Assembly (NCBI GenBank): GCA_947477885.1
Contig: CANJUD010000003.1
Coordinates: 62,001 to 126,000, forward strand
DNA: 64,000 bases
Source of the DNA: Bacteroidota bacterium
GTDB lineage: Bacteria > Bacteroidota > Bacteroidia > UKL13-3
Direction: 5' to 3'
In this document: piece by piece, positions 10,279 through 29,121 of the stretch
Numbering within the stretch: the stretch's first letter is position 1
Layout of the letters: the number at the start of each line of letters is the position of its first letter
Notes under the pieces: model-generated
What the model was told of the DNA's origin: nothing
The model's database searches: none
Seen by the model: the letters and a program-made list of their open reading frames with translations, nothing else
Made by a program: the position numbers and the translations under genes

Positions 10279-10384
10279 AACTGTATGAATTTATTGATTG
10301 CAATAATCGCAAATAAAAACCTAATTGTAAAGAAAAGAATTTGAACATATGTGAATAGTGTAATAAGGAATTGCATCGCACCCG

Positions 10385-10392
10385 TATCTTTG
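10385..10392 (+). promoter_or_regulatory. -7 box giving a leaderless hflX mRNA
   Basis: TATCTTTG ends six bases before the GTG at 10398, so transcription would begin at or next to the start codon. No TTG is visible at the expected -33 position. Confidence 0.4.
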
Positions 10393-10397
10393 TAATC

Positions 10398-11525
10398 GTG
10401 ATAAAAACCAAATTATATGATACCGCTGCCAAGCAAGAAACTGCTGTGCTAGTGGCCGTGCAGACTCCCGAACAGAGTGATACCCAAACTGTGGAGTACT
10501 TAGATGAGCTTGCTTTTTTGATTGAAACCTGTGGAGCCAAACCTTTAAAGCAATTCACACAAAAACTACAAAAAGTGCATCCACGTACGTATGTGGGCGA
10601 AGGGAAATTGGCTGATATAGTTTCCTATATAAAAGAATACGAAGCCGATATCGTGGTATTTGATGACGAACTCACACCTTCACAAATAAGAAATATTGAG
10701 ACAGAGATTGGAGAAGTAAAAATATTAGACCGAAGCAATTTAATATTGGATATTTTTGCCCGCAATGCCCGTACCTCACAAGCAAAAACGCAGGTAGAGT
10801 TGGCACAAAACCAATATATGCTGCCACGATTAACAAGAATGTGGACTCACTTGCAAAAGCAAAAAGGCGGTGTAGGTATGCGTGGTCCAGGAGAAAGAGA
10901 AATAGAAACCGACCGTCGTGTAATTCGTGATAGGATAAGTTTGCTGAAAGATAAACTGGAAGATATAGATCGTATTAATATAGGTCAGCGGAAAAATAGG
11001 ACGGGTGTGAAACGCTTGGCACTGGTGGGTTATACCAATGTGGGCAAATCATCCATCATGAATATGGTGAGCAAAAGTGACGTGCTTGCCGAGAATAAAT
11101 TATTTGCTACACTCGATGCTACCGTGCGAAAAGTATATATTGACGGGCATAATTTTTTGTTGAGTGATACGGTTGGTTTTATACGCAAATTGCCTCACCA
11201 ATTAGTCGAGTGTTTCAAATCTACTTTGGATGAAGTGCGTGAAGCTGATGCTTTGTTGCATGTGGTGGACGTATCACATAAAAATTTTGAAGAGCAAATT
11301 GATGTAGTGAACCAGACTTTGGTTGATATAGGTGCGGCAGATAAACCCACTTTAATGGTATTTAATAAAACAGATTTAATACAAGAGCAAGAAATATTTG
11401 AAAACCTGCAAGCCACGTGGATGGCGAAGAAAAATAATCCTGCGATATTTGTATCGGTATTACAAAAAGCCGATGCGGCAAGGATTAAGGAAGCAATTGT
11501 GAAGGTACTGGAGGGGTTGAGGTAA
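10398..11525 (+). CDS. hflX: ribosome-associated GTPase HflX
   Basis: The N-terminal HflX domain (KQFTQKLQKVHPRTYVGEGK) is followed by the conserved RGPGEREIETDRR and a G domain with G1 LVGYTNVGKSS, G3 DTVGFIRKLP and G4 NKTD. HflX binds the large ribosomal subunit and splits stalled 70S ribosomes under stress. The ORF track begins at a TTG at 10371, but the family start aligns with GTG at 10398 (VIKTKLYDTAAKQ), giving 375 residues; the TATCTTTG box lies within the extra segment, which argues against the longer form. It is followed by a large intergenic repeat. Confidence 0.94.
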   Translation: MIKTKLYDTAAKQETAVLVAVQTPEQSDTQTVEYLDELAFLIETCGAKPLKQFTQKLQKVHPRTYVGEGKLADIVSYIKEYEADIVVFDDELTPSQIRNIETEIGEVKILDRSNLILDIFARNARTSQAKTQVELAQNQYMLPRLTRMWTHLQKQKGGVGMRGPGEREIETDRRVIRDRISLLKDKLEDIDRINIGQRKNRTGVKRLALVGYTNVGKSSIMNMVSKSDVLAENKLFATLDATVRKVYIDGHNFLLSDTVGFIRKLPHQLVECFKSTLDEVREADALLHVVDVSHKNFEEQIDVVNQTLVDIGAADKPTLMVFNKTDLIQEQEIFENLQATWMAKKNNPAIFVSVLQKADAARIKEAIVKVLEGLR

Positions 11526-11546
11526 TTATATATATTTTCCGTTTTT

Positions 11547-11928
11547 AATATTTCGCCCCTACGGGGCTTTCCTGTATAGGGTTATTTATTTTTACCAATA
11601 TATAATCCCGTAGGGACTTTTTAGCAAATAGTATTATAGTTCCATCGGGACCATATATCGGTAGTAATTTGTTTATGTAGAATTACCAAGTCCCGCAGGG
11701 CAATGCTGTTAAGTTAAGAGAAAATGCTAATCTATTGCCCTGCTCTTCAGAGCAGGGGACTGAGAATATATAATGTATTGTTCCGATACTTCGGAATTAG
11801 CCGCAGAAAACAATGTGGCTAAAGCCGAGCACCTATTCCTATTAATCCGTTGGCTGATTCCGAAGTATCGGAACAACGGCAATAGATATTCCTTAACTTA
11901 ACAGCATTGCCCATAGGGACGAAATATT
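11547..11928. repeat. nested inverted-repeat element (MITE- or REP-like)
   Basis: This 433-bp gene-free gap holds concentric inverted repeats. Outer arms: aatatttcgcccctacggg (11547-11565) against cccatagggacgaaatatt (11910-11928), 17 of 19 matching. Next: gtcccgcagggcaatgctgt... (11690-11718) against its near-perfect reverse complement at 11892-11920, including 18 identical bases. Then ctattgcc/ggcaatag, a perfect 20-bp pair ttgttccgatacttcggaat (11778-11797) and its complement (11857-11876), and ttagcc/ggctaa. Local hairpins ccctgctc-ttca-gagcaggg and gccccTAcggggc also occur; the latter may terminate hflX. No ORF is present. I infer a non-autonomous mobile or structured element. Confidence 0.7.
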
Positions 11929-11958
11929 ATAATGAAATCAGAAAGCTAGAATAATATA

Positions 11959-12618
11959 TTATAAAAACAATTTCGGAACCTTCGCATCAATATATACTTC
12001 TTCATTTTTTACCGGATGTATAAACCTCAATTCCTTCGCATGCAATCCAATTGCAGCATCGGCTAATGGGGCAGGGGAGCCATACTTTACATCACCCACT
12101 ATGGTACAACCAATTGCTGCGAGCTGCGAACGAATCTGGTGTGGACGACCCGTATGTGGTTTTACTTCTAATATATATTGAGTGCCGAGTTGTTTAATCA
12201 GTTCATATTCCAAAACAGCTTGTAAAGCATTCGGTGTTGGCTTATTATATGCTTTTACTTTATTCTGCTGTTCGTTCTTTATTATATAATGTGTGAGTGT
12301 ATCTTTTATATTCATCGGTTTTTTATCGACCAATGCCCAATAGGTTTTTTGTACTTCACGTTGACTAAAAATTTTGTTCATTCGTTCCAATGCTTTTGAT
12401 GTTTTTGCCATTAGTACCAAACCGCTTACAGGTCTGTCAATCCGATGTATACAACCACAAAATATATTGCCGGGTTTATTATAGGTTTCTTTTATATATT
12501 CTTTGGTGTAATCAATCAAACACAAGTCTCCCGTCTTATCGCCCTGCACCAACATGCCCGAAGGTTTGTTCACAGCAATCAGATGATTATCTTCGAATAT
12601 GGTATTGAGTTTTTGCAA
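11959..12618 (-). CDS. RluA-family pseudouridine synthase
   Basis: The catalytic-Asp motif HRIDRPVSGLVLMAKT (HRLDxxTSG-like), the N-terminal VNKPSGMLVQGD and the later HTGRPHQIRSQLA identify a RluA/C/D-type enzyme that isomerises uridine in rRNA or tRNA. There is no S4 domain. The ORF-track start at 12678 cannot be right: that ATG lies inside the mdh terminator hairpin. The first in-frame initiator past the terminator and before the conserved IFEDNHLIAVNKPSG is TTG at 12618, giving 219 residues. No SD is seen. Which RNA position it modifies cannot be told. Confidence 0.88.
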   Translation of the reverse strand: MQKLNTIFEDNHLIAVNKPSGMLVQGDKTGDLCLIDYTKEYIKETYNKPGNIFCGCIHRIDRPVSGLVLMAKTSKALERMNKIFSQREVQKTYWALVDKKPMNIKDTLTHYIIKNEQQNKVKAYNKPTPNALQAVLEYELIKQLGTQYILEVKPHTGRPHQIRSQLAAIGCTIVGDVKYGSPAPLADAAIGLHAKELRFIHPVKNEEVYIDAKVPKLFL

Positions 12619-12640
12619 TTGAGTATTATATAATGTGTCT

Positions 12641-12676
12641 AAAAAAAAAGAGCCGACCTTGGTTATTAGTCGGCTC
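12641..12676 (-). terminator. rho-independent terminator of mdh
   Basis: On the minus strand gagccgac and gtcggctc pair around an 11-base loop and are followed directly by nine T residues. It stands about 30 bases beyond the mdh stop and decides the start of the downstream pseudouridine synthase gene. Confidence 0.92.
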
Positions 12677-12707
12677 AATATATTAATAGGTTTTTGGTGG
12701 TTACTAT

Positions 12708-24690: not shown

Positions 24691-24738
24691 TTAGTGATAC
24701 AACAACTCAACGCCACATTTTTATTTAACAAGTATTTT

Positions 24739-24815
24739 GTCATCCTGAGTTTATCGAAGGGTAGACAAACTATGGTGCTTCTTTCAAACGCCGTCTTCGA
24801 TAAACTCAGACTGAC
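24739..24815. repeat. 77-bp palindromic dispersed repeat, copy 2
   Basis: It begins gtcatcctgagtttatcgaa and ends cttcgataaactcagactgac; ends are inverted repeats of about 20 bp. It is the same element, in the same orientation, as 1494-1569, with a diverged centre. Confidence 0.75.
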
Positions 24816-24825
24816 AACGTATAAT

Positions 24826-25781: not shown

Positions 25782-25801
25782 AATTTTTTATTTAAGTGGT
25801 C

Positions 25802-25957
25802 AGTAAACAGTAGTCAGTGGTCAGTGGCTGATGCCGTATTGCACTGATTACTGACTACTGATTACTAGCTACTGATTACTGATTACTAGCTACTGATTAC
25901 TGATTACTAGCTACTGATTACTGATTACTGATTACTGTTTACTGATTACTGTTTACT
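25802..25957. repeat. AGTAATCAGT-type repeat with three 21-bp tandem units
   Basis: The ends carry agtaaacagt (25802) and its complement actgtttact (25934 and 25948). In between, ctagctactgattactgatta is repeated in tandem about three times from 25865, period 21 bases. It also contains ggctgatgccgtattgcac, an inverted relative of a segment at 27946-27961. The last codons and stop of hpt (25939-25941) lie inside it. Confidence 0.8.
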
Positions 25958-26487
25958 TTCTCTTTATATATATGTCTCAAATTTCTTCCATAACCATCAT
26001 AATCCAAACCATAACCTACTACAAATTCTTGTGAAATATTGAAGCAGGCGATATCAGGATTTATTGGGTATTGTAAACTTTCTTTTTTATATAATAATGT
26101 TACCACAAATATACTTGCTGGATTTTGTTTGTTGAGTTCTTCTAACAAATGCTTCATGGTAAGTCCGGTGTCTATTATATCTTCTAATATAATAATATGC
26201 TTTCCTGTTAAACTATCACTCAAGCCCAATAAACTTTTTACTTGGCCTGTGCTGCTATCGCCTTGGTAGGAGGCAACCTTAATAAACTGTACCGAACTTT
26301 TTATATTTACATTTTTCAGCAAGTCGGCAGTGAACATGAAGGAGCCGTTTAGCACGGGAAGAAAAACAGGATCAAGGTGTTCGAACTTATAGCTAATTTC
26401 TTTCGCAATTTCCATTACGCGGTCTTTGATACTTTCATATCTAATGAACAGTTCAAATGTGCGGTCTTCGATGTGGACTTGCTCCAT
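25939..26487 (-). CDS. hpt: hypoxanthine phosphoribosyltransferase
   Basis: The 182-residue protein has the PRPP-binding motif IIILEDIIDTGLTM and the N-terminal PVLNGSFMFTADL of 6-oxopurine phosphoribosyltransferases. It salvages hypoxanthine and guanine to IMP and GMP. Six bases separate it from ugd upstream, so it is probably co-transcribed. The final residues VNSNQ and the stop are encoded by the dispersed AGTAATCAGT repeat, so the original C-terminus was probably different; the conserved core ends earlier and should be unaffected. Confidence 0.94.
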   Translation of the reverse strand: MEQVHIEDRTFELFIRYESIKDRVMEIAKEISYKFEHLDPVFLPVLNGSFMFTADLLKNVNIKSSVQFIKVASYQGDSSTGQVKSLLGLSDSLTGKHIIILEDIIDTGLTMKHLLEELNKQNPASIFVVTLLYKKESLQYPINPDIACFNISQEFVVGYGLDYDGYGRNLRHIYKEKVNSNQ

Positions 26488-27813: not shown

Positions 27814-27838
27814 TTTATATTTTATTTTTTTAGTGGTC

Positions 27839-27991
27839 AGTAAACAGTGGTCAGTAGTTAGTGGCTGACGCAGCGTTGTACTGCCTTTTTGTTATATATT
27901 CTTTTTATTTTTAGTAATCAGTGGTCAGTAATCAGTAGTCAGTGCAATACGGCGTCAGCCACTAACTACTGATTACTAATTACTGTTTACT
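27839..27991. repeat. palindromic AGTAATCAGT-type repeat upstream of ugd
   Basis: Outer arms agtaaacagt (27839-27848) and actgtttact (27982-27991); inner perfect 19-bp inverted repeat agtagttagtggctgacgc (27853-27871) and its complement (27952-27970). The centre is T-rich. It shares cagtgcaatacggcgtcagcc with the repeat at 25.8 kb in opposite orientation. Confidence 0.8.
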
Positions 27992-29121
27992 ATTGTCTTT
28001 ATACTATTTAATACTGTATTTGTTATATATGATAATTGCTCTTCGGTTAATTCACTATGCATGGGCAAAGATATCACACAATTGCACAATTGTTCTGTAA
28101 TAGGAAAACTACCGTCTTGTAAATATGCTTTTTGGTGGTTCAAGGGAACGGGATAATATATCATAGCTGGAATTTGATTTTCTGCCAAGTATTTTTTCAA
28201 TTCGTTGCGATCTATTCCACAAGTTTGCAAGGTATATTGATGAAACACATGGGTTGAATTTTTAGCTCGGTGTGGTGCTTTCAAATTTGGGTGATTTGCA
28301 AAAGCTGTATCATAATAGTTTGCTGCATTTCTGCGGGCAGTATTATATTCATCCAAATGTTTCAATTTGATATCCAATATCGCAGCTTGCATGGTATCGA
28401 GCCTAGAGTTTACGCCAATCTCATCATGATAATACAATCTGCTTTGTCCATGATTGCATATCATACGGGCTTTATTTGCAAGTTCATCATCATTGGTAAA
28501 AATGGCACCACCGTCGCCAAAGCAACCCAGATTTTTGGAAGGAAAAAATGAGGTAGCTCCCATTTGTCCCATCGTTCCTGCTTTGCTCGTATGCCCATCA
28601 GTAAATGTATAATCGGAGCCGATTGCTTGGGCAGTATCTTCTATTATATATAAGTTATGTCTTTTTGCGATATTGATAATGGCTTCCATATCCGCACATT
28701 GGCCAAATAAATGTATGGGTACAATGGCTTTAGTTTTGGGAGTGATTGCTGCTTCAATTTTTGCAGGATCAATATTGAAAGTCATTGGATCCACATCCAC
28801 CAAAATTGGTTTCAATCCTAGCAACGCAATTACTTCGGCAGTAGCTACATAAGTAAAACATGCAGTAATTACTTCATCGCCAGGTTGTAAGCCAAGTGCC
28901 ATCATGCAAATTTGTAAAGCATCGGTTCCATTTGCACAAGGAATCACGTGCTTCACATCTAAATATTTTTCAAGATTTGCTTGGAATTGTTTCACTTCTG
29001 GGCCATTGATAAATGCTGCCCTGTCCATAATGTCGAGCAAGGCCTGATCTATTTGGGGCTTTATCTTTTGGTATTGGCCGATTAAATCGACCATGCGAAT
29101 AGGTGCTATAGCTGTCTGCAT
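27976..29121 (-). CDS. DegT/DnrJ/EryC1/StrS aminotransferase
   Basis: This PLP-dependent sugar aminotransferase has the cofactor Lys near 196 in SFFPSKNLGCFGDGGA, the ANGTDALQ phosphate-binding turn near 65 and EDTAQAIGS near 161-169. Such enzymes add an amino group to keto-sugar nucleotides. The sequence resembles the WecE/FdtB/WlbE group, but the exact sugar cannot be told. Length 381 residues is normal. Its 3' end runs into the repeat, and its 5' end has a strong promoter candidate. Confidence 0.92.
   Translation of the reverse strand: MQTAIAPIRMVDLIGQYQKIKPQIDQALLDIMDRAAFINGPEVKQFQANLEKYLDVKHVIPCANGTDALQICMMALGLQPGDEVITACFTYVATAEVIALLGLKPILVDVDPMTFNIDPAKIEAAITPKTKAIVPIHLFGQCADMEAIINIAKRHNLYIIEDTAQAIGSDYTFTDGHTSKAGTMGQMGATSFFPSKNLGCFGDGGAIFTNDDELANKARMICNHGQSRLYYHDEIGVNSRLDTMQAAILDIKLKHLDEYNTARRNAANYYDTAFANHPNLKAPHRAKNSTHVFHQYTLQTCGIDRNELKKYLAENQIPAMIYYPVPLNHQKAYLQDGSFPITEQLCNCVISLPMHSELTEEQLSYITNTVLNSIKTIVNSN

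Follow-up and report, generated by a model that had tools for sequence, protein, structure and literature searches.

Results

A nest of repeats between two convergent genes

The inverted repeats that fill positions 11547-11930 of the window, the 64,000-nucleotide stretch of contig CANJUD010000003.1 (a Bacteroidota bacterium) that we analysed, are a stack of at least three repeat families and not one 380-bp element. Each layer is of a recognisable known kind, either a REP/REPIN unit or an IS4-type MITE, and the nesting is unusually clear. We consider it probable, at roughly 85%, that the stack arose by layered insertion, in which a four-hairpin REP unit (family A) was entered in its fourth hairpin, by an IS4-type route, by a second element (family B) that carried a further REP unit (family C).

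The repeats occupy the gap between hflX (10371-11525, forward strand) and an RluA-type pseudouridine synthase gene (11959-12678, reverse strand), which are convergent. An earlier note on this DNA had described nested inverted-repeat pairs around a single centre, and the pairs themselves were all recovered: perfect arms of 18 bp (11701-11718/11892-11909) and 20 bp (11778-11797/11857-11876), and outer pairs matching at 26 of 29 (11690-11718/11892-11920) and 17 of 19 positions (11547-11565/11910-11928). Two arms are self-palindromic (TTCCGATACTTCGGAA and TTCCGAAGTATCGGAA), the outer hairpin motif is indeed repeated through the gap as four CCCGTAGGG-type hairpins, and the interior is free of ORFs of at least 60 aa. 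The common centre was not borne out; the pairs are nested, yet have three centres (11737.5, 11805 and 11827), an arrangement that fits separate elements nested off-centre and gave the first hint of stacking. The inverted repeats are real and well above chance level, the single-strand fold of 11540-11935 having a z of -11.7 with none of 100 shuffles equally good. An Rfam scan of the window returned tRNA only, with no family matching the gap, and the plasmid and phage collections gave no match.

Family A is a dispersed four-hairpin REP unit

In its own genome the 382-bp sequence is found at full length once, together with 27 partial matches that sort into families by layer. The first of these, family A, comprises an outer and an inner hairpin on the left and an inverted inner and outer hairpin on the right, and would have spanned ~165 bp before its interruption. 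Its outer-left REP (11547-11569), a AATATTTCG tail followed by a GCCCC-TAC-GGGGC hairpin, has the position and form seen in 13 other A units; the inner-left REP (TACCAATATATAATCCCGTAGGGACTT) lies at 11593-11619 and the inner-right REP (TAGTTCCATCGGGACCATATATCGGTAG) at 11637-11664. The outer-right REP is broken by family B, its first half (AAGTCCCGCAGGG) standing at 11688-11700 and its second half (GGGACGAAATATT) within 11910-11930, where intact copies read AAGTCCCGTAGGGACGAAATATT and the uninterrupted fourth hairpin is AAGTCCCGNAGGGACGAAATATT. The consensus is AATATTTCGTCCCTACGGGACTT for the outer and GATATTTCGTCCCGATGGGACTT for the inner REP.

Relatives of A occur at ~24 other loci in the same genome, 23 of them without a long ORF spanning the unit, and a search with the A REP pattern gave 96 matches versus 10 with a reversed-pattern control. 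Most units keep a step of 50-54 bp from outer to inner hairpin, and no common sequence is visible among their linkers. In L087 and L105 the outer-left REP is changed to GTACCTACGGCAC and the outer-right REP bears the matching change; arms are more alike within than between loci (p = 0.016 for the outer and p = 0.07 for the inner arms). A and C are thus REPs in the sense of palindromic repeats in many intergenic copies, and A in addition forms inverted pairs with concerted arms. A falls outside the GTAG- and CGTC-tagged superfamilies, its GTAG lying ~12 nt from the stem in the inner REPs only and its CGTC overlapping the stem. Without its fourth hairpin the window's A unit folds weakly (z = -2.9, against -12.6 for the intact unit L095), partly because an outer arm is missing from the folded piece and partly because the copy is decayed.

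These distributions bear on the idea that all 382 bp form a single mobile element bounded by the outermost inverted repeats. The 17/19 outer arms and the lack of anything coding within them would suit such an element, but apart from the single full-length copy every match covers one layer only, A being found without B at ~20 places and B/C without a complete A unit, and we regard a single element as extremely improbable.

A units lie in tandem (14) and convergent (9) gaps and only once in a divergent gap. Such a bias, the convergent flanking genes and a terminator-like hairpin at 11555 (GCCCCTACGGGGC, followed by T-rich sequence) would be expected if the gap were a functional bidirectional terminator or a structured RNA kept for regulation, for which the repeats had been recruited or conserved. 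The number of terminators is at chance level (1 versus 0.8 expected), nothing in Rfam matches, the corresponding DNA of congeners is unrelated, and loss of insertions into promoters would likewise lead to an avoidance of divergent gaps; we therefore find a regulatory origin very unlikely. In the two same-genus genomes compared (G001 and G002), hflX is 93-94% identical and the orthologous gap has no trace of the nest. It contains unrelated DNA, with small other hairpins in one genome and, in G002, a 312-aa ORF (L323, 1541-2479) that is missing from the window. The earlier note had named a single copy conserved at this site in all relatives as evidence against mobility, and that pattern is not seen in these two congeners. 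The comparison supports an origin of the nest by insertion in the window's lineage; as the congeners' gap DNA is unrelated, it does not provide a clean empty site.

Family B, a probable IS4-type MITE inside the fourth hairpin of A

Family B is 209 bp long, gene-free and bounded by perfect 18-bp terminal inverted repeats of IS4 type (CAATGCTGTTAAGTTAAG; left copy at 11701-11718 on the forward strand, right copy at 11892-11909 on the reverse strand). It is flanked by CCCGCAGGG (11692-11700) and CCCATAGGG (11910-11918), where intact A units show a single CCCGTAGGG. The flanks agree at 7 of 9 positions and are probably a decayed 9-bp target-site duplication, of the sort that the earlier note had proposed looking for.

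Ends of this type are widespread, with at least 108 among the matches listed. Strong duplications of 10-12 bp accompany 13 of the 32 end pairs among these matches, versus 0.25 expected from shuffled flanks. CCC-N-GGG or GGG-N-CCC palindromes flank 12 of the 108 ends listed and 4 of 648 control windows (p = 5e-8), a preference of B-type ends for such palindromes as targets. A palindrome is lacking beside the majority of the 108 pattern matches, some of which may be due to chance.

Elsewhere the same ends enclose complete transposases. In L265 and L203 they surround IS4 transposases of ~450 aa (NF033592, E = 2e-54 and 7e-50, above the cut-off), with no mismatch to the degenerate end pattern at either end of L265 and one at each end of L203, so that B shares its ends with IS4 elements whose transposase is intact. 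Of the 18 end positions of B, 13 and 14 are matched by the two ends of Escherichia coli IS4, an element that has a 12-bp duplication. Target duplications in the ~9-13 bp range are thus found at the level of the family, the window's copy agreeing at 7/9. The B interior is multi-copy in its own genome, being complete in the window, L002 and L004 and partial in L003, L009 and L014, and five of the six copies adjoin A-type half-hairpins. No IS4 transposase was found in that genome, and in 58 genomes of the same taxonomic family no such transposase was found between two B ends. From its ends, flanks and copies, B is best read as an IS4-type MITE.

Three further observations concern these ends. A Cyclobacterium element (L198) was considered as the autonomous partner of B and dropped on account of its partial transposase, L265 and L203 taking its place. 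The B-ended IS4-type element of L265 (525-2109) lies near a contig end in a MAG labelled Aenigmatarchaeota, reflecting either horizontal transfer or a binning error. In one Saprospiraceae MAG (JAHDHB), several contigs (L172, L189, L193, L195, L229 and L241) stop ~50-110 bases from a B-type end, as if a repeat with such ends had broken the assembly.

Family C is a second REP unit within B

The interior of B is a REP unit, family C, whose hairpins stand beside CTATTGCC/GGCAATAG and GGCTTTAGCC and which also occurs outside B (L010, L016 and L066). Its outer-left REP (11732-11758) combines CTATTGCC with a CTGCTCTTCAGAGCAG hairpin, as in L002, L003, L010 and L016, and its inner-right REP (GTGGCTAAAGCC) lies at 11815-11826. 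The other two REPs are variants that bear an apical hairpin, D: one at 11777-11802 (reverse complement GGCTAA-TTCCGAAGTATCGGAA-CAAT) and the outer-right one at 11847-11885 (CCGTT-GGCTGA-TTCCGAAGTATCGGAA-CAACGG-CAATAG), the latter with an architecture shared with other genera (CCGTTGGCTAATCCCGAAAGCTTTCGGGAGAACGGCAAT). At the mirrored positions of the two self-palindromic D arms, the C hairpins of L002 have GCT/AGC triplets. We had considered D as a separate mobile palindrome and abandoned this because GGCTRA, a hairpin, in some cases a lower stem, and CAAT recur together in other genera of the family; judged by this recurrence, D is an apical hairpin form of the C-type REP. No D variant was found in viral contigs.

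The mirrored replacement speaks for another origin of the arms, in which local template switching or inverted duplication, and not insertion, produced them; arm-to-arm conversion, a possible cause of the doubling of D, would explain it. Against such an origin, every arm has copies in other genera or at other sites of the genome, and the B arms adjoin a duplicated target; we hold it to be highly implausible.

Family A associates with one RAYT clade and family C possibly with another

Four Y1 transposase (RAYT) genes are present in the genome (L021, L022, L023 and L024), each bordered by a REP family of its own, and none is flanked by A REPs or placed in the A clade. In G001, of the same genus, A-type REPs lie immediately on either side of a RAYT (L140), and in G018 they accompany a RAYT (L138) on one side only. 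When 68 RAYTs were placed in a tree, the A-flanked L138, L140, L302, L311 and L318 form one clade (support 98/97), and the A-REP label requires 2 changes versus a mean of 5.2 when shuffled. Family A thus has a cognate RAYT through these five relatives, and its copies were most likely spread either by a RAYT that this genome has since lost or by a RAYT from outside the A clade. RAYTs of the L021 clade (among them L292, of the same genus, L297 and L286) are accompanied by hairpins with CAATAG or CAAAAG tails. This association with C is statistically weak (Fisher p = 0.047); it is suggestive of C belonging to a RAYT system other than A's, with L021 in that clade.

Other repeats in the window

Long imperfect inverted repeats built from TAGTNNTCAGT-like units lie at 25789-25970 and 27831-27992; they reach 56 nt at 79% complementarity and look like another intergenic repeat family. 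Two inverted pairs of TGTCATCCTGAGTTTATCGAAG and CTTCGATAAACTCAGACTGACA, at 1493-1570 and 24737-24817, represent a further dispersed palindrome family.

Discussion

Under layered insertion, the gap between hflX and the pseudouridine synthase gene would first have received a four-hairpin A unit, which a RAYT of the clade seen in relatives had probably copied as single-stranded DNA. The 209-bp B, carrying C, would then have inserted into the fourth hairpin of A through an IS4-family DDE transposase that, acting in trans, recognised the 18-bp ends of B and chose and duplicated a CCC-N3-GGG palindrome as target; C would stem from a different RAYT system than A. We infer the order of these events, the enzymes that acted and any recent activity from the sequences. 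Current mobility is unsupported, since neither an IS4 transposase nor an A-clade RAYT was found in the genome.

The suggestion that the sequence is mobile and dependent on a trans enzyme fits the component layers and does not fit the 382-bp whole, which occurs at full length once. Their many copies, the duplicated target, the nest missing from two congeners, the REP-flanked RAYT clade and the intact IS4-family elements with B's ends give the layers the look of non-autonomous mobile elements dependent on such an enzyme. The enzymes with matching ends that the earlier note had anticipated were found in relatives or other genomes, and for A and B none was found in this one.

Among the matches listed, the same B-type ends surround unrelated hairpin-rich interiors in many genera. 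This fits, without proving, a model in which B is a carrier MITE whose IS4-type ends repeatedly capture a nearby REP unit and move it into other REPs, a model that we hold to be rather unlikely. If it were true, a single-strand (RAYT) and a double-strand (IS4) system would be spreading each other's elements. At this one site, intergenic palindromes can be read as accumulating by insertion into each other, and the pairing of REP family A with a specific RAYT clade makes REP recognition testable in a group of bacteria whose REPs receive hardly any description in the literature that we found.

REPINs and RAYTs have been described (PMC3116915, PMC2817692), as have insertion sequences that target REPs, including the IS4-family ISRm22 at the palindrome axis (PMC1525189). 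Families A and C resemble REP/REPIN/BIME sequences with their RAYTs (TnpA-REP; PMC3116915, PMC2817692, PMC3733652) in being short intergenic hairpins in inverted pairs and many copies, with matched arm changes in A and a separate RAYT clade adjoining A and, possibly, C. A differs in having four hairpins instead of two, one inverted pair being nested in the other at an almost constant step of 50-54 bp, in having no unpaired GTAG/CGTC tag at the hairpin foot, and in that its RAYT clade was not found in its own genome. B is like IS4-family elements and their MITEs in its 18-bp ends, in the 10-12 bp duplications of its family and in the IS4 transposases found between the same ends elsewhere, and unlike them in being a gene-free 209 bp with a REP unit as cargo and no autonomous partner found in the genome. 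Insertion into a REP palindrome is shared with the REP-targeting insertion sequences (PMC1525189), whereas the inserted element here is a MITE that contains the REPs of another family. Three features are less usual: the way in which three families are clearly nested, the four hairpins of the A unit, and the REPs of another system within a MITE.
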